A DNA stretch of 37,653 bases, from positions 1-37,653 of the IMG/VR virus record IMGVR_UViG_3300025093_000055; one strand, written 5' to 3'. Below the pieces are notes generated by a model that was given only the letters and a program-made list of their open reading frames with translations, ran no database searches and was not told where the DNA came from. This DNA comes from a virus. This document shows positions 4,527-37,466 of the stretch, piece after piece; within the stretch, counting starts at the first letter, position 1, and every line of letters starts with the position of its first letter. The position numbers and the translations under genes were made by a program.

Positions 4527-5235
4527 TATCATCATGATTTTTTACTACTTGGTCATATCTTTCTGACCTGTAACTTAATAATCTATTACCTTCTATATGC
4601 CAATCATCTCTACTTGTTTGTTCTTCTAAATTTAATTTAACTTTATCTACAGCTACAGGTAGCAAAGTTATTAATGGAGTTCCTTCTTCTATAATTAACA
4701 TATCTCCTATATCTAATCTTGGATATATTTCCATAGGAAAATTTATATTATGATAAACATCTGTTCTAACAACGCCAGGTAATAATCTAAATGGTCTATC
4801 TTTTTCGTTATAGAAAGGGTCAAAGAACATTGTTTGTATATTTTCTTCAGTCTTAATTAACCAAGGACAATTAAGTTTAATTGCACCTCCTATTAATAAT
4901 TCAGTAACACTTGTGTTTTCTATTTGATTTTGTGTATGATGTCCTGTAACTTCCCAACCTTCTATTTGACCATCATGTCCACTTGTTACAACTAAACCAT
5001 TTTTAGTTTGATTAAATTTAATCCATGTCCATGCAGGAACTACAATACCTTGCGTTAATATATCTCTAACAGCAGGACAATTCTTTATATTACCTGCTTC
5101 TTCAGGCATCATAGGGTCATGAAATCTTTTCATTTTCTTCCACCAATCAGGTAGCATTCTATTTGCATTGACTGGTGTATGTGTGTCTAATAAATAATTA
5201 AACTCTGGTGTTAATGGTTTTAAACTAATTTGCAA
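4519..5235 (-). CDS. Halogenase-associated protein, DUF6065-like pattern (238 aa)
   Basis: A 238-aa soluble protein. An N-terminal MLPDWWKKM motif (about residues 27-35) is followed by a CP pair and a series of predicted strands: PAWTWIKF, NCPWLIKT, LLPGVVRTD, INFPMEIYPRL and EEGTPLITLLPV. This run of motifs resembles the beta-rich DUF6065 type, but the match is from memory and distant. The gene overlaps the halogenase gene by 11 bases, so the two are coupled. The 193-aa protein on the other side of the halogenase shares the same motif order, suggesting an ancient paralogue pair. A role in binding or delivering the halogenase substrate is inference. Confidence 0.7.
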   Translation of the reverse strand: MQISLKPLTPEFNYLLDTHTPVNANRMLPDWWKKMKRFHDPMMPEEAGNIKNCPAVRDILTQGIVVPAWTWIKFNQTKNGLVVTSGHDGQIEGWEVTGHHTQNQIENTSVTELLIGGAIKLNCPWLIKTEENIQTMFFDPFYNEKDRPFRLLPGVVRTDVYHNINFPMEIYPRLDIGDMLIIEEGTPLITLLPVAVDKVKLNLEEQTSRDDWHIEGNRLLSYRSERYDQVVKNHDDML

Positions 5236-6388
5236 CTTTAATCCTTTCTATAAGTTTATCGTATATACCTAATCCTATAAGATTTTCTGCTTGGTTTCTT
5301 AAACCCCAACCTGCACCAAATATTCCTAATTCATTAGTACTTATTTGTCTATCAAGATATCTTTGTATATTCTGTACTTGTTCTATAAATGTAATAGGTG
5401 CATTGTCTAAACAATTCCAACCTTTTTTTACAGCATGTTTCCAGAAAGGTGTATCAAACTTACTACCTGCTGCATAATGTAACATAATTATTACATTTGT
5501 TTCATCAAACCACATGTCTAATTTTTGTTGTTCATAATCTATAGAGTGTCCGTTGTATATAAGGTCATATGTTTGTCTGTTAATAAAGTCAATAGTTTCA
5601 ATAGAAGTAGCTTCTAATGGTTCTAAAAAAAATGATGCGTTGCCATTATGTGATTGATACTCACTATAGTTTTGTTTTAATTTATAATTATTAAATGAAA
5701 GATTATTTATTTTACCGTCTGCTTCTTCTTCTAATAGGTTTAGAACTTCTTCTATATCTTTTTTAATTTCATCAACAGTATTAAATTTATCATTATACAT
5801 ATAACCTAATGACAATCTATTAGATAATGGAACACCAAATACCCAACCATAAGGTCTAGCTATAGCTAATGTATATTGTATTTTAGGATAATCCCATGGA
5901 CATTGAACTACATAAGCTGAGTTAATAACCATATCATGTTGTATTGCAAACCTGTCATCCATAGTAGGTTTACCTCTACAATCAATTACATAATCAGTAT
6001 CTAATTCATTTACATTTTTTATATGTTTATCTATGTAATTAACTTTATGTTCAATTTTTTCTTTTATAAAATTTTGTAAGCCTAATGCATTAAAATGCCA
6101 AGCACTTTCAGGTATAGGAAAATTGTGAAAGTAATTATTTGCACCCCAGTTTTGATACATGATACCTTGTTTAGCATTGTAATTTATTTTAGATAACTCA
6201 AGCCAAGATAAATTAAATATGTTTGTTAGTAATTTAGGCAAAGATAATTGTGAACCTTCTCCTACTGCAGCCTCAGGTATATTGCTATCGTATATAACTT
6301 CTATTTCATCTTCTGTATAATGTGAAAAGTGTGCAGCAGCAATACTACCTGCAGTTCCTTTACCTAATATTGTTATCTTTTTTGACAT
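5225..6388 (-). CDS. Flavin-dependent (tryptophan-type) halogenase
   Basis: 387 aa. The N-terminal FAD-binding motif is GKGTAG (residues 9-14) after KKITIL. VGEGS (42-46) and the segment YNAKQGIMYQNWG follow; Lys73 aligns with the catalytic lysine of PrnA-type enzymes. GWVFGVP (181-187) replaces the usual W-x-W-x-I-P motif, and LEPLEATS (255-262) matches the second conserved site with its glutamate. The family uses FADH2, oxygen and halide to halogenate an aromatic or other electron-rich substrate. Marine cyanophage members are known, including an iodinating one. No flavin reductase is seen here, so reduced flavin would come from the host. The gene is coupled by overlaps to both neighbours. 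Slightly short for a tryptophan halogenase; the substrate is unknown. Confidence 0.88.
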   Translation of the reverse strand: MSKKITILGKGTAGSIAAAHFSHYTEDEIEVIYDSNIPEAAVGEGSQLSLPKLLTNIFNLSWLELSKINYNAKQGIMYQNWGANNYFHNFPIPESAWHFNALGLQNFIKEKIEHKVNYIDKHIKNVNELDTDYVIDCRGKPTMDDRFAIQHDMVINSAYVVQCPWDYPKIQYTLAIARPYGWVFGVPLSNRLSLGYMYNDKFNTVDEIKKDIEEVLNLLEEEADGKINNLSFNNYKLKQNYSEYQSHNGNASFFLEPLEATSIETIDFINRQTYDLIYNGHSIDYEQQKLDMWFDETNVIIMLHYAAGSKFDTPFWKHAVKKGWNCLDNAPITFIEQVQNIQRYLDRQISTNELGIFGAGWGLRNQAENLIGLGIYDKLIERIKVAN

Positions 6389-25587: not shown

Positions 25588-27372
25588 TTATATTCCAAAT
25601 GCCTGTGCCATAGTTGGTAATCCACCTTGTCCTCCTAATTGCTGTTGCATCATTTGTTGTTGTATCATAGCTTCTTCCTCTGGTGACATCTGTGGCTCTT
25701 GTGGAGTATAGAACTGTTTCATAATTTCTGTTACAGCTCCAGGATACTCATAAATAGCTATTGCAGCCATAGTAGCTGCAGCATCACCTTGTGCAGACCT
25801 AGCTAATATACTGTCAAATAATACTGATTCAGCTTTGTTTTTACGTATACGTTCTTGTACTTTTGCTATATTTTCTAAACCATCAATATTATCTTGTAAG
25901 GTTTCTACGTCTATAACACCTGCTTGTAATAATTGCAACCCAGTTACAATTTTTTGTGGTTCATCAAAACCAGCCATAACACCATAGATACGTCTTGTTT
26001 TGTAGTCACCACCAATATCAGCAAGTGGTTGGTAGTTTTCTGCAAATGCAGAACCATTAAGAAAACCTGCCATAGGTTTTTTAGTAACACCTGTAGTGTA
26101 AGATAATACAACATCCATTTCTAAACGTTTCTCATCCATTTGAACCATAGCATTTTTAATAACATCTCTATATTCAGATATCATTAATGACATAGTGCTA
26201 TTAAGTTCTGACAAACCAGCACCAGTAACAAAAGAGTTAGGTGACTGTGAGTCATCTGTAACAGGGTAACCACCTACCATACGCAACTGTCTTTCCAACC
26301 TATCTATTTGTTGAAACAATTGATATGGCATATTGTTCATTGGTTTAGAAACTTGTGTACCTGGAGCTAGATAATTAACAGCAAATCGACCTTTTCTATA
26401 TTGTCCTGATTCTATCTCTCCAGATATGTTAGTTTCTGTAAATACAGAATCTTCCATTGCAATTGCAGACATTATGTTAATCTTTGCCATCATAGCCATT
26501 AATCCTATGACATGGTCGTATTGACCTTTTAGTTGGTCAAAAGAAACTTTCTTCATAAATACAAAAGGTGGTGTAGATAATACATTAGGTATAAAGTCAA
26601 GTATCATGTTACGTTCTGGGAATACAACATAAGTACCACCCATGTCGTAATATTCAATAATTCTTACACCAGAATATGTATTGTCTTCCCAACCTTGTTC
26701 TCTATTGTTTTCATAAGATAAAAATGGTGTAGCAGTATCAGGTGTTGCTTCTTCAGCATCTTCATCTTTTTTTAATATTTCATTTGCAAACTCTGGATAT
26801 ATCTGTGCTAGTTTATATCTAGGTACACGTCTTAATACTGCCATTTCTCTAGGTTGTTGGTCAGGACCAAAGTTACCTGGAAATGTATCATAAGGGTCTC
26901 TTAGTTCAGCACTAGGATAAAAGAAACCATTCTTATCTCTTTTAGTTGTAATAACCCATGCAGCAAATCCATAACCAGGTAGCCATCTTGCAGCTTGTTG
27001 TATTTGTGCTAATAAATTTTGTTTATCATCATAGTTAGAAACAATACGTTCTAATTTTTCTGCACGTATTTTACTTCTATTTGAATCATTATCGTTAGGT
27101 ACATCTACTCTAACTTGAGGTATTCCAGATATTTTTTGTGCAAGTCGGTCAATACCAGATTGCAACATGTTAGGAGCTGGTAATAAATCAGCATCACTTG
27201 TTTCCATTGTATTACCTAGTAAAGCTTTTATACCATCTGCACCACCATTAAGAATTGCTTTTATTCTAGATTTCTGTACTTGTCGTTCTTGTACTAATTT
27301 ACCTGATACAAGTTCAGCTGCATTTTTAACTATTTCATCATAGTTTTTTATATCTAGATTTTCTATCCCCAA
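25588..27372 (-). CDS. Portal protein
   Basis: 594 aa, starting MGIENLDIKNYDEIVKNA. Portal-like features are the N-terminal helical region, LPAPNMLQSGIDRLAQKI (about residues 64-81), then ARWLPGYGFAAWVIT and SAELRDPYDTFPGNF, where the Asp-Pro-Tyr-Asp-x-Phe-Pro pattern is typical of portals of marine short-tailed phages. A long helix with LNSTMSLMISEYRDVIKNAM fits the channel-lining part, and the C-terminus is Gln/Met-rich (EEAMIQQQMMQQQLGGQGG). Size and position right after TerL fit. The start overlaps the TerL end by 10 bases. Confidence 0.85.
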   Translation of the reverse strand: MGIENLDIKNYDEIVKNAAELVSGKLVQERQVQKSRIKAILNGGADGIKALLGNTMETSDADLLPAPNMLQSGIDRLAQKISGIPQVRVDVPNDNDSNRSKIRAEKLERIVSNYDDKQNLLAQIQQAARWLPGYGFAAWVITTKRDKNGFFYPSAELRDPYDTFPGNFGPDQQPREMAVLRRVPRYKLAQIYPEFANEILKKDEDAEEATPDTATPFLSYENNREQGWEDNTYSGVRIIEYYDMGGTYVVFPERNMILDFIPNVLSTPPFVFMKKVSFDQLKGQYDHVIGLMAMMAKINIMSAIAMEDSVFTETNISGEIESGQYRKGRFAVNYLAPGTQVSKPMNNMPYQLFQQIDRLERQLRMVGGYPVTDDSQSPNSFVTGAGLSELNSTMSLMISEYRDVIKNAMVQMDEKRLEMDVVLSYTTGVTKKPMAGFLNGSAFAENYQPLADIGGDYKTRRIYGVMAGFDEPQKIVTGLQLLQAGVIDVETLQDNIDGLENIAKVQERIRKNKAESVLFDSILARSAQGDAAATMAAIAIYEYPGAVTEIMKQFYTPQEPQMSPEEEAMIQQQMMQQQLGGQGGLPTMAQAFGI

Positions 27373-29285
27373 GGTGCCTCATTTATTTTTGTCATCTTAT
27401 AATCTCCATAACTAGGATTGTAGTCTAACCCTATATCAGCAGCATGCTCTTTTTGCATACGTCTAAAAACTTTCATTGGAAACCAACTAGCCATAACTAT
27501 ATCGGTCTTCTCTTTGTTTCTTTTAGAAACAGGTTTTCCATCAAAGTATAACAGTTGTTGCCTATATTTCTGTACTTTTGCATTAGATTCTCCATCACCA
27601 GTAGGTAAATGTATTCTTCTATTTTCAAACAAATCAGCCATAGCTCCAACACCATACAATGGGTCATGTTTATTTTTACCTGTCATATGTCCTTGTATTG
27701 TTATACCTGTACGTAAAGTAAATTCTTTTATAGATGCGTCTTGTCGTATAGCAGTTTGAAATCCGTTTTCTTCTACTATCCAATGTCTACAATCGTATTC
27801 ATGTAACCATATAGCCATTTGGTCTAATGCAGCTCTTACACCACCGCCACGTTTATTTTCTAAATCAACTAAATATAATTCACCTCTGTACTGGTCTATA
27901 CCCCACAATACACTTGCTTGGTAACCACTAGATGCAGGGTCAAGTCCAGCAACTAAATATAAATTTTTATATACTTGTCCTAGTACTAAGTCAGGTCGCA
28001 TACATTGGTCAATCATGTTCATAGTAAATATTTGCGTACCTTCTACATATGCTTGATTGTAATAAACCATTTCAAATGTTTGTCTACCACCTGTAGATTC
28101 AGCAGAATGTAATCTAGACATTAACCATTTGTGTGTACGTTTACTTGGCCATAACATACAATCAATATGTTCCTCAGTTAAATGTTCTGGTATATCACAA
28201 TCTAATGCGTGTGCAGATTCAACAATAGTTGTAAAGTTATCTGATTCAAGTAAATGATTATACAAATCATCAGGATGTTGTCTTGAACCAATAACTACTA
28301 TTGCAGTATGTTCCTCTTTACGACTTGATAATGTTGTAGTCCACCATTGTCTTGTACTTTCTCTTGCACCAGGTTGCATAGTTGTTTGATGGTCTTCAAT
28401 GTCGTCAGCAATAATAATATCGCAGTCTCTTGATAATATCTTTCCACCTTTACCTACAGCAACCATAGTAGGTGACTTAATACCTGCAACAGTTCTAGTA
28501 CCTACAGTAAATTGATTTTGTGACCAGTTCTTACCTGACCTATTGTCTGGTTTAAAGTTTGTACCAGGCATACAATATGCTTCTCTTAATTCTTCATTAG
28601 TATCTAATACATCAAGTACAGCAGATAATGCGTTCTTAGCAATGTCTTCGTTACCACCTACCCACATAATACGTACGTTAGGGTTTTTGCATATTTGATA
28701 AACAGCAAAGTGTATTAATAATTCAGTCTTTCCATGTCGTGGGGGTGACAGTATTAATAACTCTTTACCGTTTTCTATACTATCTATAATGTTATTAATC
28801 CATTCAGTATGAAAATCTGCGGTGTCGTATACTTCTCCTAGTTCTGTTCTAAAGTATCTTTGTCGGAAGTCGGAAAAATTTTCTAATGCAGACTTAGCAT
28901 CCTCTGATAACTCCCAATCTTCTGCTGCTATTTCGTTTCTACTATCTACTTTAAATGCACCAAGCATGCGACTGACAGTAGCAGGTGTGCAACCAAGGAG
29001 GGAAGCTGCGTGTGCCACTGTCATGTCGCCAGTTGCAACTTCATCAGCTATACCTTCGCTTACGAAAGCTTGGTAATACTGCCCTCTTCTGATAGAGGCG
29101 TAGTCGCCTTCATCAGACTTACGTTCTATATTAATAGGTTTTACGTCATCTTGCGTGTTATAATACTTGTCTCTTGCAAACTGTCGTTTTTGGCAGGTAG
29201 GGGAACAAAATTTACGTTGTTTACCCTTTAATCTCTTCCTGCAACCCTCTGCTATACAGACTACATTCTTGGGTGTATCGACCAT
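27363..29285 (-). CDS. terL: Terminase large subunit with N-terminal zinc finger and HTH
   Basis: 640 aa. A Cys4 zinc-finger-like start has C10, C15, C27 and C31 (C-x4-C-x11-C-x3-C, with KFCSPTCQKRQF). A helix-turn-helix follows at about 88-112 (TVAHAASLLGCTPATVSRML). Then comes a standard ATPase, with Walker A SPPRHGKTE (180-188) and Walker B DIIIADDIED (289-298), and an RNase H-like nuclease with GLDPASSG and the IVEENGFQ strand. The family cuts and pumps DNA through the portal. The N-terminal extension resembles a DNA-recognising small terminase fused to the motor; no separate small terminase gene is visible in the window. The start follows a GAAAG site downstream of a minus-strand promoter. 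Confidence 0.9.
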   Translation of the reverse strand: MVDTPKNVVCIAEGCRKRLKGKQRKFCSPTCQKRQFARDKYYNTQDDVKPINIERKSDEGDYASIRRGQYYQAFVSEGIADEVATGDMTVAHAASLLGCTPATVSRMLGAFKVDSRNEIAAEDWELSEDAKSALENFSDFRQRYFRTELGEVYDTADFHTEWINNIIDSIENGKELLILSPPRHGKTELLIHFAVYQICKNPNVRIMWVGGNEDIAKNALSAVLDVLDTNEELREAYCMPGTNFKPDNRSGKNWSQNQFTVGTRTVAGIKSPTMVAVGKGGKILSRDCDIIIADDIEDHQTTMQPGARESTRQWWTTTLSSRKEEHTAIVVIGSRQHPDDLYNHLLESDNFTTIVESAHALDCDIPEHLTEEHIDCMLWPSKRTHKWLMSRLHSAESTGGRQTFEMVYYNQAYVEGTQIFTMNMIDQCMRPDLVLGQVYKNLYLVAGLDPASSGYQASVLWGIDQYRGELYLVDLENKRGGGVRAALDQMAIWLHEYDCRHWIVEENGFQTAIRQDASIKEFTLRTGITIQGHMTGKNKHDPLYGVGAMADLFENRRIHLPTGDGESNAKVQKYRQQLLYFDGKPVSKRNKEKTDIVMASWFPMKVFRRMQKEHAADIGLDYNPSYGDYKMTKINEAPWG

Positions 29286-29310
29286 TATTTAACTATCTTT
29301 CATTAGATGT

Positions 29311-29338
29311 TTGTATAGTGAGAATTATATGCTATAGT
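29311..29338 (+). promoter_or_regulatory. Plus-strand promoter of early arm
   Basis: TTGTAT (29311-29316), a 16-nt spacer ending TGC, and TATAGT (29333-29338) give a sigma70-type promoter with an extended -10 and a start near 29345. It faces the right-hand genes. Its ATATGCTATA core is also found before the lysis-type cassette at 4518-4526. Confidence 0.5.
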
Positions 29339-29341
29339 CAA
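29312..29341 (-). promoter_or_regulatory. Minus-strand promoter upstream of terL
   Basis: Read on the minus strand, TTGACT (29341-29336), an 18-nt spacer and TATACA (29317-29312) form a sigma70-type promoter with a start near 29305, about 20 nt before the terminase ATG. It overlaps the plus-strand promoter almost base for base, so the two arms may compete for polymerase. Confidence 0.5.
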
Positions 29342-29344
29342 CTT

Positions 29345-29548
29345 AATTACAAACACTAAACACAAGTAATTTGTTACAGGTGAAGGTGCAATCGGGATGC
29401 AGAAAGCTGCTGACTGGCAAGACAGTACACTAGAAAGACAAAAGCAGTACCCAAGGACTTAAGAAAAGGTTTAGTTAGCTTCAATAACGTCTATGCCCGC
29501 TAACGCCCTTTCTTACTGGGTTTCTACTGAATTACCAGTATATTTTTT
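29345..29548 (+). ncRNA. Candidate short terminated RNA at start of early arm
   Basis: From the promoter start near 29345 to the T-run at 29548 there is no convincing ORF. Helices visible are CTGCT/AGCAG with GGG/CCC outside it and ACTG/CAGT inside it (about 29395-29451), and GTTAGC (29474-29479) with GCTAAC (29499-29504). The stretch ends in a terminator-like hairpin. It could be a small RNA of about 200 nt or an attenuated leader that controls entry into the early operon. No known riboswitch class was recognised. Confidence 0.4.
29514..29548 (+). terminator. Terminator-like hairpin with T6 run
   Basis: TACTGG (29514-29519) pairs with CCAGTA (29535-29540) around a 15-nt loop and is followed by TATTTTTT. 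The stem is short for the loop, so termination may be partial, but no gene ends here, which suggests an attenuator. Confidence 0.4.
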
Positions 29549-29646
29549 AGACCTTACGTACTATAAGAGAGACGTCAAGGTTGACATATGGTAGTCAATG
29601 TAAGACTGTACATAAGAACTAAAGTACCTAATGTAAAATATATACT
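29549..29646 (+). promoter_or_regulatory. Gene-free stretch with consensus -35 box and inverted repeat
   Basis: TTGACA (29581-29586) is a perfect -35 box but has no good -10 at the right distance. It is part of an inverted repeat, TTGAC-N8-GTCAA (29581-29598), which could be an operator. An AT-rich stretch with TATACT follows at 29641-29646. No ORF seen. Confidence 0.3.
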
Positions 29647-29703
29647 ATATAGTATCCATATCCTTCTGCTGTCTCTTGAGACAGAAGGATACAGATACTA
29701 TAT
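29647..29703 (+). promoter_or_regulatory. Bulged intergenic hairpin 1
   Basis: Lower stem ATATAGTATC/GATACTATAT, a CA/CA internal loop, middle stem TATCCTT/AAGGATA, a 3-nt CTG bulge on the 5' side, then CTGTCTC-TT-GAGACAG. It belongs to the four-member family described under findings. Confidence 0.75.
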
Positions 29704-29737
29704 GTTTTAATATAGAGGGATATATAGTTTAAATGTA

Positions 29738-29767
29738 ATCCTTTAGTCTCAGATGAAATGAAAGGAT
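29738..29767 (+). promoter_or_regulatory. Hairpin burying the ribosome site of the 46-aa gene
   Basis: ATCCTTT (29738-29744) pairs perfectly with AAAGGAT (29761-29767), which contains the ribosome-binding site of the gene starting at 29773. Translation may thus depend on opening this helix. Confidence 0.45.
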
Positions 29768-29772
29768 GTACT

Positions 29773-29913
29773 ATGATTAATAAATTACGTTGGTACGTAT
29801 TTACAATAGAGTGTACGTTTAAAAGATATAGATTTCGTATACGAAAATATATCTGGTTTAAACGTAACGATAATCCACCGCCACCAAATGTTTGGCTGGA
29901 GATGATGAATTAA
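29773..29913 (+). CDS. Small basic early protein (46 aa)
   Basis: A 46-aa frame starting MINKLRWYVFTIECTFKR with a GAAAGGA site at good spacing. It is very rich in Arg, Lys and aromatic residues in the middle (KRYRFRIRKYIWFKR) and ends with PPPPNVWLEMMN. The first gene of the early arm in a phage is often a host-takeover factor, and its basic-aromatic character would suit nucleic-acid or membrane-surface binding, but no family is recognised. It lies between hairpins 1 and 2. Confidence 0.6.
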   Translation: MINKLRWYVFTIECTFKRYRFRIRKYIWFKRNDNPPPPNVWLEMMN

Positions 29914-29928
29914 ACATTAGATAACATA

Positions 29929-29977
29929 ACTATCTGTAGGATACAGCAGACTTAAAAGTCTGTATCCGACAGATAGT
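29929..29977 (+). promoter_or_regulatory. Bulged intergenic hairpin 2
   Basis: Lower stem ACTATCTGT/ACAGATAGT, an A/G mismatch, middle stem GGATACAG/CTGTATCC, a 3-nt CAG duplication bulged on the 5' side, and the ACTT-AA-AAGT tip. Lies between the 46-aa and 77-aa genes. Confidence 0.75.
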
Positions 29978-30000
29978 AATAAGTTATAGAAAGGAAACTA

Positions 30001-30234
30001 ATGAATAACTTAGACCAATGGAAACATAAGAAAACATGTAACGTTTGCTTATATCCTATTGTATTCAAAAGAGATACACATTTTGAGCGTAATGCGAAAA
30101 ATGGTATTAGTTACCCACTTAACATACACAAAGGGCAATGCCATACAAAAGTGTTGTTGAGTGACGAAACTGTATGGGAAGTCTCAAAGAGACAACCGAA
30201 TACAATACAACAGTTAAAATTACTATTTAGATAA
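30001..30234 (+). CDS. Small early protein with C-x2-C motif (77 aa)
   Basis: 77 aa, starting MNNLDQWKHKKTCNVCLY, with AGAAAGGA upstream. A C-x2-C pair at residues 13 and 16, a His-rich middle (FKRDTHFERNAKNG) and a later HKGQCH give five or six possible zinc ligands, so a small zinc-binding fold such as a DNA-binding or adaptor domain is plausible. No family recognised. It is flanked by hairpins 2 and 3. Confidence 0.68.
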   Translation: MNNLDQWKHKKTCNVCLYPIVFKRDTHFERNAKNGISYPLNIHKGQCHTKVLLSDETVWEVSKRQPNTIQQLKLLFR

Positions 30235-30235
30235 C

Positions 30236-30282
30236 TATCTAACAGCACTCTGCTGACTCTTGAGTCAGAGTGCTGATAGATA
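30236..30282 (+). promoter_or_regulatory. Bulged intergenic hairpin 3
   Basis: Lower stem TATCTA/TAGATA, A/A mismatch, middle stem CAGCACTCTG/CAGAGTGCTG, 3-nt CTG bulge on the 5' side, and tip ACTC-TT-GAGT (a CTTG tetraloop). It begins at the stop codon of the 77-aa gene. Confidence 0.75.
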
Positions 30283-30306
30283 TTTATATATAGAAAGGAA
30301 TAAAAT

Positions 30307-30417
30307 ATGTGTGAATATTGTAATAATACTATAGATGATAACATCAAAGCATGGAGCAATTTATGCGAACCATGCGCAGTAGAACAAATGTATACTGGTA
30401 AAGCGTTAGCTTTATAG
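30307..30417 (+). CDS. 36-aa zinc-ribbon-like microprotein
   Basis: A 36-aa frame, MCEYCNNTIDDNIKAWSN followed by LCEPCAVEQ, with two C-x2-C pairs (residues 2/5 and 20/23). That is a classical four-cysteine zinc-ribbon or knuckle layout in miniature. A strong AGAAAGGA site precedes it, and bulged hairpins lie on both sides, which mark it as a real unit of the early operon. Function unknown; binding to host RNA polymerase or nucleic acid would be a reasonable guess only. Confidence 0.62.
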   Translation: MCEYCNNTIDDNIKAWSNLCEPCAVEQMYTGKALAL

Positions 30418-30472
30418 TATATATCTGACAGCTTTCTGCTGACTTAAAAGTCAGAAAGCTGACAGATATATA
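30418..30472 (+). promoter_or_regulatory. Bulged intergenic hairpin 4
   Basis: Lower stem TATATATCTG/CAGATATATA, A/A mismatch, middle stem CAGCTTTCTG/CAGAAAGCTG, 3-nt CTG bulge on the 5' side, tip ACTT-AA-AAGT. It starts at the base after the stop of the 36-aa gene. Confidence 0.75.
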
Positions 30473-30517
30473 TAATATATCACCATTGTATAAGATAACG
30501 TAAGAAAGGATAATATA

Positions 30518-30841
30518 ATGGCACAATTAATATACGAAGTAATTTGCGGGGTAACTGGCAAGTTAATAACTGACGGTTCACAACAACCACGCATTCATTA
30601 CTTCTCTAAAAACAAGGGCGGAGCTAAAACTACATGGTTACATCTAGATAAAGATGAACCACAAGTAGCTGAGTTAATGAAAGCTAAGAAAGAAATAGAG
30701 GACAAATTATGGGCATTACATAATCAAAGTCCTACAGCATTCGTTAATCAAAACAAAACTGAGGCTACGCCAGTAGCTGAAGTAGTAACTGAAGTAACTG
30801 AGGAAGTTACTGAAGTTATGGAGGAAGTTGCACCTTACTAG
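30518..30841 (+). CDS. Early protein with acidic Val-Glu-Thr tail (107 aa)
   Basis: 107 aa, starting MAQLIYEVICGVTGKLIT, with GAAAGGAT upstream. The folded part (residues 1-70) ends in a charged helix (ELMKAKKEIEDKLWAL). The tail is a repeat of Val, Thr and Glu (VTEVTEEVTEVMEEV), giving a strongly acidic end that could mimic DNA, as several early phage proteins do. This idea rests on composition only. No family was recognised. Confidence 0.68.
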   Translation: MAQLIYEVICGVTGKLITDGSQQPRIHYFSKNKGGAKTTWLHLDKDEPQVAELMKAKKEIEDKLWALHNQSPTAFVNQNKTEATPVAEVVTEVTEEVTEVMEEVAPY

Positions 30842-30847
30842 GTAGAT

Positions 30848-30911
30848 TTCACACACCCTATGCGATATGTGTAGGGTGAGTGAAGTTTATATAAGTATGT
30901 TTTATATAAAC
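30848..30911 (+). promoter_or_regulatory. Two back-to-back hairpins
   Basis: TTCAC-A-CACCCTA (30848-30860) pairs with TAGGGTG-A-GTGAA (30872-30884), 12 pairs with one A/A mismatch. Immediately after, GTTTATATAA (30885-30894) pairs with TTATATAAAC (30902-30911). The second helix can grow into the first by two pairs, so they may compete as alternative structures. They lie between the 107-aa and 72-aa genes. Confidence 0.6.
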
Positions 30912-31159: not shown

Positions 31160-31160
31160 T

Positions 31161-31212
31161 ATTCTGTCTCTGTCTGCTGGTAAGCTTATATATCCAGCAG
31201 ACAGAACCAGAA
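31161..31212 (+). promoter_or_regulatory. Intergenic hairpin (TGTCTGCTGG stem)
   Basis: TGTCTGCTGG (31171-31180) pairs with CCAGCAGACA (31194-31203), with ATTCT/AGAAT as an outer stem and a 13-nt AT-rich loop. It shares the CTGCTG string with the four bulged hairpins but not the bulge. Confidence 0.6.
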
Positions 31213-31228
31213 TAAAGAAAGGGAAATT

Positions 31229-32254: not shown

Positions 32255-32454
32255 CGCAAAGCTATTTACATTCTTGTACCCCCTTATACAAGTGTCACGC
32301 AAGTGATAACCATAATGTAGGTAGCTTGTAGCACATAGACCTATCGCTTAGAGTACTCAAAGTATGATAACGAACCAAGGCATACACGAAGTTTGTGTGT
32401 TACAAGCTACTTATGACAGAGAGGAACTATCATATCGATACATTGCAACCCTGC
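32255..32454 (+). ncRNA. Structured non-coding stretch with 15-bp long-range helix
   Basis: CTTGTA pairs with TACAAG and TCAC-GCAA-GTGA forms a hairpin with a GNRA loop (both within about 32274-32308). Further on, GTAGCTTGTAGCACA pairs with TGTGTTACAAGCTAC, 15 pairs including one G-T wobble, across about 59 nt (about 32321-32408). No credible ORF with a ribosome site lies here. The RNA could be a regulatory leader of the next gene or a processed small RNA; it is not a class I recognise. Confidence 0.55.
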
Positions 32455-32497
32455 TTCCTTTCTGTCTGAGTAGCTTTTATATTCAGACAGAAAGGAA
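32455..32497 (+). promoter_or_regulatory. 15-bp hairpin burying a ribosome site
   Basis: TTCCTTTCTGTCTGA (32455-32469) pairs perfectly with TCAGACAGAAAGGAA (32483-32497). The 3' arm contains the AGAAAGGA ribosome site of the gene at 32502. CTG/CAG pairs extend the helix outward past one mismatch. The gene should be silent unless the helix is opened or cleaved. Confidence 0.65.
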
Positions 32498-32501
32498 TCA
32501 G

Positions 32502-32963
32502 ATGAATAAGATAGAAGAAGTTGACGCATTAGAACGTAAACAATATACAGTCACGTTTGCTTACGCTGGTTTTGATAGTCATAATGACAAGTCATCAGCG
32601 TTTGACGAAGAACCTGACGTATGGGTTATACAAGTATGGGCAATATCTACAATGGACAGTATCGTTAGAGCTAAACAAATATTAGACATTGAAAGAGGTG
32701 AAATTGCTACAGACTGGCATTCACATAATCCAGAAATGCGTGAAGGTATGAGTACACAAGAACTTGACAGAGTATATAAAGGGTTTCTTGATAGACATGT
32801 ATTTAAACATTGGATGTTAATGGAACCTACATCTATACAAGCGCATCTAACTGTTGACGATAATGCATTACGTAATATGACTATCGATAACATAATTAAC
32901 ATCACTGAAAATATTGGTAACGAAGTAGAAAATTACTTGAAAGGAGATGATGATGTTACCTGA
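32502..32963 (+). CDS. Early protein of unknown function (153 aa)
   Basis: Start at 32502 (MNKIEEVDALERKQYTVT), chosen because AGAAAGGA lies 4-11 bases upstream; a longer frame from 32364 would run through the structured stretch. 153 aa, soluble, with an alpha/beta N-terminal half (YTVTFAYAGFDSHND, VWVIQVWAISTMDS) and a long helical C-terminal half. No family recognised. Its end overlaps the next gene by 11 bases. Its ribosome site is inside a perfect 15-bp hairpin, so it is probably regulated after transcription. Confidence 0.7.
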   Translation: MNKIEEVDALERKQYTVTFAYAGFDSHNDKSSAFDEEPDVWVIQVWAISTMDSIVRAKQILDIERGEIATDWHSHNPEMREGMSTQELDRVYKGFLDRHVFKHWMLMEPTSIQAHLTVDDNALRNMTIDNIINITENIGNEVENYLKGDDDVT

Positions 32964-33264
32964 TGATATGTACGCAGCTACACCACCTAAGCCTGATAAC
33001 GCAGGTAAAGGTAGAGCGCCACGGTTACTTACTGACGATAAAGTAAAAGTGTTGTTAGCTACACCTAATACATGGTATGTAATAGGTACTAGTGAGAAAT
33101 GGATTAGCGGTACAGCTAAAAACATAATGTCCTTTGGACAGAATAACATAAGCCACCTAAAAGATTTAGGTAGGTTTGACGTACTACAAAGAAAAGATAA
33201 AGAAACTTCTGTAATTAATATCTATTGTAGATGGGTATCAAATGCAGATATGGAACAAGAATAG
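32953..33264 (+). CDS. Small early protein (103 aa)
   Basis: Three ATGs occur in a row (32947, 32950, 32953). The last has the best distance to AAGGAG and is used here. 103 aa, starting MLPDDMYAATPPKPDNAG, with a Pro-rich N-terminus and a strand-rich core (VKVLLATPNTWYVIGTS, DVLQRKDKETSVINIYCRW). The small domain has the look of a phage HTH-like or OB-like fold, but I cannot assign it. It precedes the AAA+ gene by 11 bases. Confidence 0.68.
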   Translation: MLPDDMYAATPPKPDNAGKGRAPRLLTDDKVKVLLATPNTWYVIGTSEKWISGTAKNIMSFGQNNISHLKDLGRFDVLQRKDKETSVINIYCRWVSNADMEQE

Positions 33265-33275
33265 AAAGGATAATC

Positions 33276-33992
33276 ATGGATAATAATAATGATTGTTGGA
33301 AAATGATAGCATCAGTGCTAGGTAAATCACGTAGAGTATTACTCTATGGGCCACCAGGTACTGGTAAAACATACAGTGCAGTAAAACAAAGCACACCTAT
33401 TACATTAGAAGGACAACCTAATGTATATCAAATAACTATGACAGAAGACACTGCGTCTGCTAATTTAGAGGGTTTTTATATGCCTTCAGCGGACGGTGGA
33501 TTTCAATGGCATGATGGTATTGCAATACAAGCATGGCGTAAAGGTGCTAGATTGGTTATCAATGAGATAGACCACGCTAGTCCTGACGCTATGACATTCT
33601 TGCATGCTATATTGGATGACCCAGACATAGCACAGTTGACACTAAACAATGAATCTAAAGAAACTGTAAAACCTGCTGAAGGTTTTCAAGTAGTTGCTAC
33701 TACTAACAGTCCACCTGAATCATTGCCACTTGCGTTAAAGGATAGATTTCCTGTAAAAATATATGTCGATACGATACATCCAAAAGCAATGGAACAATTT
33801 CCAGATGAATGGCATCAAGTTATTACTGACACTACATTAATTACTGACCCTGAAGAACGTGTATCAGTACGTTCATGGAAAGAGTTCTTTGACTTACAAG
33901 ACAAAGGATTTACTCCAGAAACTGCAGGTAAATTAGTATTCGGTGATAAAGCTGAAGAACTTATTGACGCAATTACTTTAAGCAATGCATAG
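33276..33992 (+). CDS. MoxR/AAA_5-type AAA+ ATPase
   Basis: Start at 33276 (MDNNNDCWKMIASVLGKS), with AGAAAGGA at good spacing; a longer frame from 33231 lies in the upstream gene. 238 aa. Walker A is GPPGTGKT (25-32). Walker B is LVINEID after a conserved TASANLEGFY segment. Sensor 1 is ATTNS and the arginine finger lies in LKDRF. This is the MoxR/CobS-like AAA_5 family, which normally works with a VWA-domain protein to remodel or insert metal into a target. The next gene, overlapping by 8 bases, encodes just such a VWA protein. The pair is probably a chaperone-like module; its target in this phage is unknown. Confidence 0.85.
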   Translation: MDNNNDCWKMIASVLGKSRRVLLYGPPGTGKTYSAVKQSTPITLEGQPNVYQITMTEDTASANLEGFYMPSADGGFQWHDGIAIQAWRKGARLVINEIDHASPDAMTFLHAILDDPDIAQLTLNNESKETVKPAEGFQVVATTNSPPESLPLALKDRFPVKIYVDTIHPKAMEQFPDEWHQVITDTTLITDPEERVSVRSWKEFFDLQDKGFTPETAGKLVFGDKAEELIDAITLSNA

Positions 33993-35409
33993 TCAGAAAG
34001 CATATCCATATCCACAGATTGTAACTGGTGATGATTGGCATGTTCTAGAAACAACAGAAGGTGACAATCAACCACGTACAGATAATCTTAATAGGCAAAT
34101 GTATGTGCCTATGGATAGGGAATGCGACTACTGCGGTATTAATCATGGCAGAATGATTAGACGTCATGAGTTAGGACATGCTAAATGGTCACCTAAAACT
34201 ATGGGTAAACTCATGAGAGGCACACGTTCTGATGCTATTGAAGCGTTAGAAGAAGTACGTGTTAACTATTTATTAGGTGCTAAAGCTAAACTACCTGTGC
34301 ATGAATACTTAAAATGTAAAGATGAATTTACTAATGACGTATTAAGGTTAGTTAAAACTGGTAGTGTTGCTGACATTATATTATATTTGTTAGCTGCGTG
34401 GAGTTCAAAAAACAGAGGTAGCGCATATGATAAATCAGAACAATTTGAATACGTAGAAGGTTTATTTAAAGTAGCTATTAATGATGAATCATTTCATCCT
34501 GTTAGACGTAGTGAACTAGAGTTTGCACATAACACAGCACAATTCTTTCAACGTAAAGTATGTGAACATAGGTGGAATCAATGGCCATCATATAGAAAAG
34601 TACAAAGACTAGCAGAAAAGTTATCAGTAATACTGAATGACTTTATAGACAAACCTAATCCTGATGAAATCATGGCACCACCACCACAACCTGGCGAAGG
34701 TGAAGGTGAAGGTGAAGATGAAAATGATGAAACAGAAACACAAGGTTATCTTGACGGTAACAGTGAATTAGAAAAACGTATGCGTACTGATTTACAACAT
34801 GACATGTTGTACAGAACGTCACAAGGTCATGGTACATGGGGTAAAATGGAAATAATGACACCACCTATGTCAGTTAATTTACGTTCACGTATTAATCATG
34901 GACGTGCATACAGACCTATGGAATATGGTTACAATCCTAAATATATTAATCGTTACTTAGTGGATAAGAAAATATTCAAACAAAAGCAACGTGTTAAGGG
35001 TGGTACTATTCTTATTGACGCTTCAGGTTCTATGTCATTTAGTGGACAAGACATCTTGGAAATAATGATGATGTTACCTGCAGTTAATATAGCTATGTAC
35101 AATGGTAACTGGGAAAAAGGTTGGTTACATATCATAGCTAAGAATGGTATGCGTGTTGATGATAAATATCTAGACGAATACACTGGTGGTGGTAACGTTG
35201 TTGACGGCCCTGCATTACGTTGGTTAGCAGAAATGCCAGAACGTAGAATATGGGTATCAGATATGAAAGTCTTTGGTACAGGTGAACACTCTAACGGTTA
35301 CAATTTGCTTAGAGATTGTTACGATATATGTACACAAAATAAAATTATTAACTTAAAAGATATAGAAGAAGTAAAGGAACATGCACTTAAATTAAATCAA
35401 GTGCTATAG
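33985..35409 (+). CDS. VWA-domain protein with HELGH metallopeptidase-like motif
   Basis: 474 aa. C47/C50 form a C-x2-C pair. RRHELGHAKW follows at 59-68, with ALEEVRVNYLL about 25 residues later; HExxH plus a downstream Glu is the layout of zinc metallopeptidases and also of CobT-like proteins. An acidic linker rich in Gly-Glu lies at about 236-253. The VWA domain carries the MIDAS start LIDASGSMS at about 343-351 and later a Thr-Gly-Gly region (DEYTGGGNVVDGPALRW). The start overlaps the stop of the AAA+ gene and has no good ribosome site of its own, so it is probably coupled. Function together with the ATPase is inferred from cellular MoxR-VWA pairs. Confidence 0.8.
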   Translation: MHSQKAYPYPQIVTGDDWHVLETTEGDNQPRTDNLNRQMYVPMDRECDYCGINHGRMIRRHELGHAKWSPKTMGKLMRGTRSDAIEALEEVRVNYLLGAKAKLPVHEYLKCKDEFTNDVLRLVKTGSVADIILYLLAAWSSKNRGSAYDKSEQFEYVEGLFKVAINDESFHPVRRSELEFAHNTAQFFQRKVCEHRWNQWPSYRKVQRLAEKLSVILNDFIDKPNPDEIMAPPPQPGEGEGEGEDENDETETQGYLDGNSELEKRMRTDLQHDMLYRTSQGHGTWGKMEIMTPPMSVNLRSRINHGRAYRPMEYGYNPKYINRYLVDKKIFKQKQRVKGGTILIDASGSMSFSGQDILEIMMMLPAVNIAMYNGNWEKGWLHIIAKNGMRVDDKYLDEYTGGGNVVDGPALRWLAEMPERRIWVSDMKVFGTGEHSNGYNLLRDCYDICTQNKIINLKDIEEVKEHALKLNQVL

Positions 35410-35900
35410 TGGTATGGAATACAGTAATCCCGCAAGGGAGTTGGTGTTCCTTTCCACTAATCAAAGCTGTATCATGTAGCAGAATAGAGTGCAAGGAGAA
35501 CTTGCAACGGGTAATACCTCATTAATGTCAACAATCAACCTATAGTGAACACTGCTACACGTACCATTTTAGAAGGTGGGTTAGCAGACCGAAGTGAGGG
35601 AGCCTGCGATAGGCGAACCGAATCTGAGGTTCTGCGGTCCGACCTTCTAAATGTAACATTTGAATACACATAATGTAAGGAGTTATTTGTAAGAGACATT
35701 GTACAGTACAGTGCCAAAGTATAACTGGCATAGCTGCGATAATAAATATAAACGTTAGTATCGGGGTAGGTCAATCACTATCAATAGAGAAAGCTATAGT
35801 ATATTTAACACCTGACTATGCAACCGATTGAAATGCGGTAAGTAGAATACATTCACACTGTACTGTTACGTAAGTCCTTGTATTAATAACAAATGACTAT
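35407..35900 (+). ncRNA. Large structured non-coding region after VWA gene
   Basis: About 490 nt without a credible gene. Visible helices: 35407-35412 with 35454-35459; GGAATAC (35416-35422) with GTGTTCC (35444-35450); TCCC-GCAA-GGGA (35428-35439, GNRA loop); TGTAGCAG (35475-35482) with CTGCTACA (35552-35559) enclosing TGCAAG/CTTGCA; TTTAGAAGGT (35568-35577) with ACCTTCTAAA (35642-35651) enclosing GACCG/CGGTC, GCCT/AGGC and GAACC/GGTTC; and ACAGTACAGTG (35703-35713) with CACTGTACTGT (35856-35866). GC content is higher than in the flanks around 35580-35645. It could be a phage structural or regulatory RNA. No known class matched. Confidence 0.65.
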
Positions 35901-37210: not shown

Positions 37211-37216
37211 TATAAT
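37211..37216 (+). promoter_or_regulatory. Putative -10 box for leaderless gene
   Basis: TATAAT ends exactly 7 nt before the ATG at 37224, so the transcript would start at the start codon. No clear -35 is seen. The geometry repeats that at 4518-4526. Confidence 0.4.
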
Positions 37217-37223
37217 GTATAAT

Positions 37224-37394
37224 ATGAATGACTTAATTGTCAAGTCTAAATGGAGACTTAGCAGTATAGAGTACAGTGGACTAGGTGATAGACCATACTT
37301 TATATTAACTAATGACCAAGGTGATACTAAGTTAGTACCAGTTGAACGTGGTGTACATAACTTACGTAACCTATTAGACTTAGAAGAAGAATAG
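37224..37394 (+). CDS. Small protein, apparently leaderless (56 aa)
   Basis: 56 aa, MNDLIVKSKWRLSSIEYS to RNLLDLEEE. The ATG at 37224 is preferred because a TATAAT box ends 7 nt before it; the upstream in-frame ATG at 37215 has only a weak AGG near it. The sequence looks like a small all-beta domain (WRLSSIEYSGLGDRPYFIL) with an acidic end. No family recognised. It is followed by another intergenic hairpin. Confidence 0.6.
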   Translation: MNDLIVKSKWRLSSIEYSGLGDRPYFILTNDQGDTKLVPVERGVHNLRNLLDLEEE

Positions 37395-37397
37395 ATT

Positions 37398-37446
37398 AGT
37401 TCTAGTCAAGTTGTTCTTTCCTTTGGGAAACAACTTTCCTAGAACT
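37398..37446 (+). promoter_or_regulatory. Intergenic hairpin before last gene
   Basis: AGTTCTAG (37398-37405) pairs with CTAGAACT (37439-37446); inside, AAGTTGTT (37408-37415) pairs with AACAACTT (37429-37436), with a short TCC/GGA tip. It lies right after the 56-aa gene and before an AAAGAAAGGA ribosome site. It has the same position as the hairpins of the small early genes but a different design. Confidence 0.65.
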
Positions 37447-37466
37447 TATATAAAGAAAGGAATGTT

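Follow-up and report, generated by a model that had tools for sequence, protein, structure and literature searches.

A maintained family of bulged hairpins between the early genes of an uncultured virus clade, with a candidate role in RNA processing or protection

The early region of an uncultured virus carries four hairpins that share one architecture and differ in sequence, and these belong to a family of bulged hairpins that is real and evolutionarily maintained. We propose that they are T7-like signals by which RNA is processed or its 3' ends are protected, with host RNase III as the probable nuclease; this reading, which we infer from the sequences, is given a probability of roughly 0.45. 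The initial annotation of this region had suggested either RNase III-like processing sites or binding sites for one protein, a candidate role that is plausible and the best available.

Genomic setting and structure of the four hairpins

The window, that is, the whole stretch of DNA that was analysed, is an uncultured virus record of 37.7 kb (37,653 nucleotides; 34% GC) from a virus that infects bacteria. The late genes lie on the minus strand (terminase, 27363-29285), and the early genes occupy the plus strand from approximately 29.7 kb (Table 1). The ~340 nt between the divergent terminase and early genes (29300-29640) are non-coding, contain TTGACATATGG, which is common to the relatives L025 and L028, and probably hold the early promoter. 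A nucleotide search of the region against cultured phages gave no match, and a pattern scan with the 107-aa early protein as query found no relatives. The search for a host through genome contigs led to two metagenome-assembled genomes, one assigned to the Gammaproteobacteria and one to the Actinomycetota; because these fall in different phyla, the binning was distrusted.

Table 1. Hairpins and early genes of the window (R1, covariance model of the bulged hairpins)
Feature	Position	Strand	Folding energy (kcal/mol)	R1 score (bits)	Remarks
Hairpin 1	29647..29703	+	-27.4	37.9	early-transcript leader; bulge GCT; 2x2 internal loop
Small early gene, 46 aa	29773..29913	+			missing from nearest relative, L005
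Hairpin 2	29929..29977	+	-24.4	37.7	after 46-aa gene; bulge GCA (AAA in L005)
Early gene g30001, 77 aa	30001..30234	+			Cys/His-rich; kept across clade
Hairpin 3	30236..30282	+	-24.8	68.4	after g30001; bulge GCT; A.A mismatch
Small early gene, 36 aa	30307..30417	+			four cysteines; other genes in its place in L005, flanking hairpins identical
Hairpin 4	30418..30472	+	-28.3	71.1	after 36-aa gene; bulge GCT; A.A mismatch
Early gene g30518, 107 aa	30518..30841	+			conserved
Unbulged post-stop hairpin	30842..30890	+			1x1 A.A mismatch; large loop; wider class
Early gene g30941, 72 aa	30941..31159	+			conserved
Unbulged post-stop hairpin	31160..31214	+			2x2 internal loop; 13-nt loop; wider class
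Possible outlying member	37398..37447	+		10.6 only	after gene 37215-37394; can be drawn with 5' bulge TCT and 2x2 internal loop

Folding confirmed the position and the structure of each of the four hairpins that the initial annotation had described (-24.4 to -28.3 kcal/mol). A strict detector, which demands a 5' bulge of 3-4 nt, a tip of at least 4 bp and a middle stem of at least 7 bp, found four hairpins in 29600-30599, as against a mean of 0.001 and a maximum of 1 in 1000 dinucleotide shuffles, and exactly four on the whole plus strand of the window. The same detector found no hairpin in 29600-30599 with the bulge on the 3' arm. A first detector had returned 3'-side bulges that were mostly alternative readings of the same hairpins; its side counts were dropped, and the strict count and the covariance model were used in their place.

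Hairpin 1 lies ~70 nt upstream of the first ATG (29773), and it is assigned to the leader of the early transcript because its upstream neighbour is the divergent terminase gene. For hairpins 2, 3 and 4, the distance from the preceding stop codon is 15, 1 and 0 nt, respectively, and that to the following ATG is 23, 24 and 45 nt; the position between stop codon and ribosome site that had been proposed for the whole set therefore applies to these three and not to the leader copy. Similarly, the proposed tip types, ACTT-AA-AAGT and ACTC-TT-GAGT, do not extend to hairpin 1, whose tip is TCTC-TT-GAGA. The 2-nt loops, when read as RNA, correspond to tetraloops CUUG and UAAA, and the bulge of hairpin 2 can be placed in more than one register. 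The possible outlying member (Table 1) is weaker than the four bulged hairpins. Within the coding sequence of the 46-aa gene, a near-palindrome, TACGTTTAAAAGATATAG..ATATATCTGGTTTAAACGTA, is present at 29814-29866 on the plus strand.

A shared architecture on different sequences

In total, 80 related virus contigs were gathered via their AAA ATPase gene and scanned for hairpins. In the window, the stretch 33231-35409 (+) holds an AAA ATPase of the MoxR/CobS kind beside a second gene that was labelled VWA-like by position, for which Pfam gave no match and the only match was to phrog_33218. The relatives carry many hairpins of the same architecture with different sequences, which yielded 52 distinct copies after correction of the register. 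The copies consist of a lower stem, a middle stem of 9-10 bp, a bulge on the 5' arm, a tip of 4-6 bp and a loop of 2-7 nt; in this set the bulge is present by construction, and GA/GT above the bulge was among the collection criteria. Bulges of 3 nt follow a U-A pair or, in some copies, an A-U pair, and those of 4 nt mostly follow C-G.

Sequence is kept in the core next to the bulge (consensus UCY[UUCC / UCC / GCU]GACY...RGUCRGA), and the middle and lower stems are variable. The core pairs are G-C, A-U and C-G above the bulge, all three invariant in an alignment of 14 copies, and U-A, C-G and Y-R below it, where pair -2 is C-G in 45 and pair -3 is T-A in 44 of the 52 copies. Part of this conservation stems from the way the copies were chosen, because GA/GT above the bulge was required when they were collected. 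The letters of the bulge vary within the family (TCC, TTCC, TCA, TCT, GCA, GTA and AAA), and the bulge persists through changes such as GCA to AAA and GCT to GTA. The duplicated CTG that had been taken as part of the design is only the bulge of the window's own lineage, since relatives possess TCC, TTCC, TCA, AAA or GTA at this place. Half of the copies (26 of 52) have a clean 1x1 mismatch 8-13 pairs below the bulge, in 22 cases at pair 10-11, and most often C.C or A.A. In some viruses (L025, L037 and L038) the bulged hairpin overlaps the ribosome site of the next gene. The longest T-run near the stem end is at most 4 in 51 of the 52 copies, and no plus-strand terminator was called, in agreement with the initial view that these hairpins, which have no T-run, are not ordinary terminators.

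The covariance model R1 scored the four window copies at 38-71 bits, while the next best plus-strand site, a different hairpin that covers a ribosome site, reached 20.7 bits. Over 83 loci, the R1 matches lay almost wholly in the early region, and nearly all minus-strand matches were weaker mirror images of those on the plus strand. Three exact-pattern scans of IMG/VR revealed that the tip pattern alone has matches all over the virus world. Counted as matches on partly overlapping loci, rather than as independent genomes, the first two scans gave 52 with at least 5 further outer pairs, all on clade contigs, and the third gave 33 of 34 clade matches with at least 5 pairs and a maximum of 4 for non-clade matches. 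The ten best of the remaining contigs from the first two scans carried no clade genes. Because all checked tip matches with an outer stem of at least 5 bp fall in the clade, the bulged element appears, from these sequences, to be confined to one virus clade, in which terminases are 85-96% identical and early genes are fast-changing. No family of Rfam 15 matched at the gathering score, the only matches being sub-threshold ones to microRNA-like hairpins.

Evidence that the pairing is selected

In the alignment of 14 in-register copies, 92% of cells pair and both sides change at 19 of the 22 pairs; none of 500 shuffles reached any of the observed pairing measures, and pairing fell to 28-39% when the partners were slid by 1-3 columns. 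These copies had been collected by middle-stem pairing, and evidence that is free of this selection therefore weighs more. The lower stem, which was not used in selection, is ~70-80% paired at most positions across the 52 copies. Furthermore, the 70 nt following the stop codons of the g30001, g30518 and g30941 homologues, which were picked by the upstream protein only and hence without circular selection, showed median folding z-scores of -3.4, -4.6 and -5.1, as against 0.4 and -0.2 behind two control genes that have no gap. The post-stop sequences are wholly different between viruses, yet the hairpin is retained. At closer range, hairpin 2 and its counterpart in L005 differ by a compensated change from C-G to T-A in the lower stem, along with the replacement of the bulge GCA by AAA.

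Paired changes in the arms with retention of the bulge, together with the shuffled and slid controls, bear out the proposal of the initial annotation that this is a selected RNA structure, and both the covariation and the conserved bulge that it called for in related genomes were looked for and found. G-U pairs are scarce (16 of 794 outer pairs; in the middle stem the detector itself limited them), and given this scarcity the hairpins may act as DNA.

A wider habit at early gene ends

In nearly all members of the clade, the stop codon of g30001 is followed at a distance of 1-15 nt by a hairpin, which is bulged in some subgroups and unbulged in others; for one subgroup a drawing with a 3'-arm bulge is possible, and another subgroup no longer has the hairpin. 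Behind g30518 and g30941, most hairpins of clade members lack a bulge, and the 1x1 mismatch described above is often present. A minority of sister viruses (L040, L047, L051, L064, L065 and L069) carry a hairpin followed by 6-8 T behind some of the same early genes, that is, intrinsic terminators. Since unbulged hairpins and a few true terminators occupy these gene ends as well, the bulged hairpins are one form of a wider habit, in which every early gene followed by a gap has a hairpin downstream.

The hairpins form modules, with stem-loops at the borders of exchanged genes. Comparison of the window with L005 shows different gene(s) between hairpins 3 and 4 and 100% identity in both hairpins, and in three virus pairs (L005/L006, L005/L011 and L004/L042) hairpins that are 88-89% identical stand between flanks near random identity (baseline mean 0.61, maximum 0.67). 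The bulged core could conceivably be an address label in a dedicated RNA-protein system by which many early genes of this widespread virus clade are co-ordinated, with labelled hairpins travelling between genes and plugging newly acquired ones into the same control, an idea that we regard as unlikely.

Proposed role and rival explanations

The early RNase III sites of phage T7 (R0.3 to R1.3) include a copy in the leader and copies between genes. The hairpins described here resemble them as irregular hairpins of ~50-60 nt, in the leader and between genes of what is probably one transcript, with an internal loop or bulge and no U-tract. The leader or between-gene position in an early operon was found in the window and in relatives, and the maintained, irregular double-stranded stem spans about two helical turns. 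The T7 hairpin R1.1, which measures 60 nt and lies between T7 genes 1.0 and 1.1, contains an asymmetric 4/5-nt internal loop (PMC6121014). In the present hairpins the 5' arm instead bulges by 3-4 nt close to the tip, an internal loop of 1x1 or 2x2 sits further down the stem, and the core is conserved.

Both in the window and in relatives, the next ATG is often only 10-25 nt beyond the hairpin, which makes a promoter between the hairpin and the next gene unlikely. Promoter-like sites were fewer than in shuffles: gaps 2 and 4 contained no site with the sigma-70 consensus and gap 3 a single weak candidate, as judged by a consensus that may not be that of the host. Given the short distance to the ATG after hairpins 2 and 3, the lack of a called terminator and the lack of a convincing promoter, the early genes are probably transcribed together. 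A phage-type RNA polymerase gene would hint at hairpin promoters of the N4 type; PF00940 (phage RNA polymerase) had no match in 13 clade records, nor in control genomes, and no phage RNA polymerase PHROG was found among the window proteins scanned. Free stem sequence, combined with a recurring helix length and small internal loop, is what would be expected of an enzyme that acts on double-stranded RNA.

Under the proposed reading, the four hairpins would be clade-specific cis-acting RNA elements of a single early transcript, with a copy in its leader and further copies downstream of the stop codons of most early genes that are followed by a gap. As at the T7 early sites, a host nuclease of the RNase III type would recognise each hairpin as double-stranded RNA. 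Cleavage within the hairpin or close to it would divide the polycistronic early message into single-gene messages, which would keep a 3' stem and expose the next ribosome site at their 5' end, and the small internal loop and the 5' bulge may restrict the cleavage or set its place. Joint transcription, cleavage, the identity of the enzyme and the effects on stability and translation are elements that we infer. The intrinsic terminators at the same gene ends in some sister viruses argue against an RNase III role, as does the possible role as DNA for which the few G-U pairs leave room. Moreover, RNase III needs no conserved core like that around the bulge, which looks like a specific binding site and is poorly explained by cleavage with this enzyme.

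The core leads to the main rival explanation, a site for one sequence- and structure-specific RNA-binding protein of host or virus that would dock on the bulge and its flanking pairs and thereby stabilise the message or control several early genes jointly. TAR has a 3-nt pyrimidine-rich bulge on its 5' arm, below a G-C and then an A-U pair; a pyrimidine-rich 3-nt bulge below such pairs recurs here, as a resemblance of secondary structure only, and approximately half of the 3-nt bulges here do not start with U. A docking protein would explain why the core is kept while the middle and lower stems differ and why the bulge outlasts its letters, and the copies that overlap the next ribosome site are consistent with control by binding. 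However, the same gene ends carry hairpins without a bulge in other members, the bulge can be drawn on the 3' arm in one subgroup, and part of the core conservation stems from the GA/GT criterion. In addition, among the early-region protein families, none was at once frequent in the bulge-bearing viruses and limited to them, which points to a host factor; a specific binding protein, if any, would be a host one or a generally conserved early protein. We consider protein binding possible, though on the doubtful side.

The exchange of genes between preserved hairpins raises the question as to whether these are recombination joints, that is, islands of shared sequence between exchangeable small genes, with regulation being secondary. 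The promoter early stem-loops (PeSLs) of T4-type phages, composite promoter-terminator motifs, have been proposed as such joints (Arbiol et al. 2010, as cited in PMC4503421). Like the PeSLs as summarised there, the present stem-loops lie between small variable early genes and are linked to gene shuffling, but they have a conserved bulge and neither a recognisable promoter nor a U-tract. Integron attC sites, bulged hairpins located after cassettes, are another conceivable parallel. The identical hairpins around the genes replaced in L005, and the similar ones between near-random flanks, favour joints. An island of homology, however, requires neither pairing nor a bulge, and the arms here co-change at fixed sites; PeSLs also join an early promoter to the stem-loop, and here the ATG follows hairpins 2 and 3 after only 23-24 nt. 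As a primary role this is improbable, and a PeSL-like function is compatible with either processing or protein binding. Terminators or attenuators that act without a U-tract and allow graded read-through are quite improbable: the hairpins do resemble Rho-independent terminators in following a stop codon, and six sister viruses have true terminators there, but a bulged arm and a near-complete lack of T-runs set them apart, a leader copy would halt the operon ahead of its first gene, and little space is left for a new promoter ahead of the next gene. The scarcity of G-U pairs would also suit a functionless by-product of mutation, in which near-palindromes are corrected by DNA template switching, a process that would make the arms co-change. 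Such correction would nevertheless erase the bulge and the 1x1 mismatches, yet both are kept at fixed places, and the hairpins are strongly biased to positions directly after stop codons; we hold this origin to be very improbable.

To our knowledge, processing hairpins between genes have been described chiefly in T7 and related phages. What is new here, compared with known phage intercistronic hairpins, is the bulge, the core and the clade-wide turnover of sequence. An architecture kept through complete sequence turnover would show how modular early regions stay expressible. The family represents a natural library of compensated variants for tests with RNase III or RNA-binding proteins, and the alignment and covariance model can be used to find more members.

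Other features of the window

The non-coding stretch 35410-35900, which follows gene 33985-35409, contains a second structured RNA, so far undescribed, at 35470-35562 (+). This RNA has a closing stem (GTAGCAG/CTGCTAC), an inner hairpin (TGCAAGG..CTTGCA) and near-invariant single strands, GAATAGAG and AUAGUGAACAC. Among 22 distinct relatives, 99% of cells pair, with changes on both sides at 11 of 13 pairs (0 of 500 shuffles), and Rfam gave no match for this RNA. The protein encoded at 5225-6388 on the minus strand matches the tryptophan halogenase family phrog_2928 (E 3e-59).

The leader of gene 32502-32963 (32318-32503, +) contains a long-range stem, GGTAGCTTGTAGCAC / GTGTTACAAGCTAC, that is recurrent in the clade, followed by a hairpin at 32451-32501 that buries the ribosome site AGAAAGGA. 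The AAGCTAC at 32404 could alternatively pair with GTAGCTTT at 32470, an arrangement that would look like a switch.
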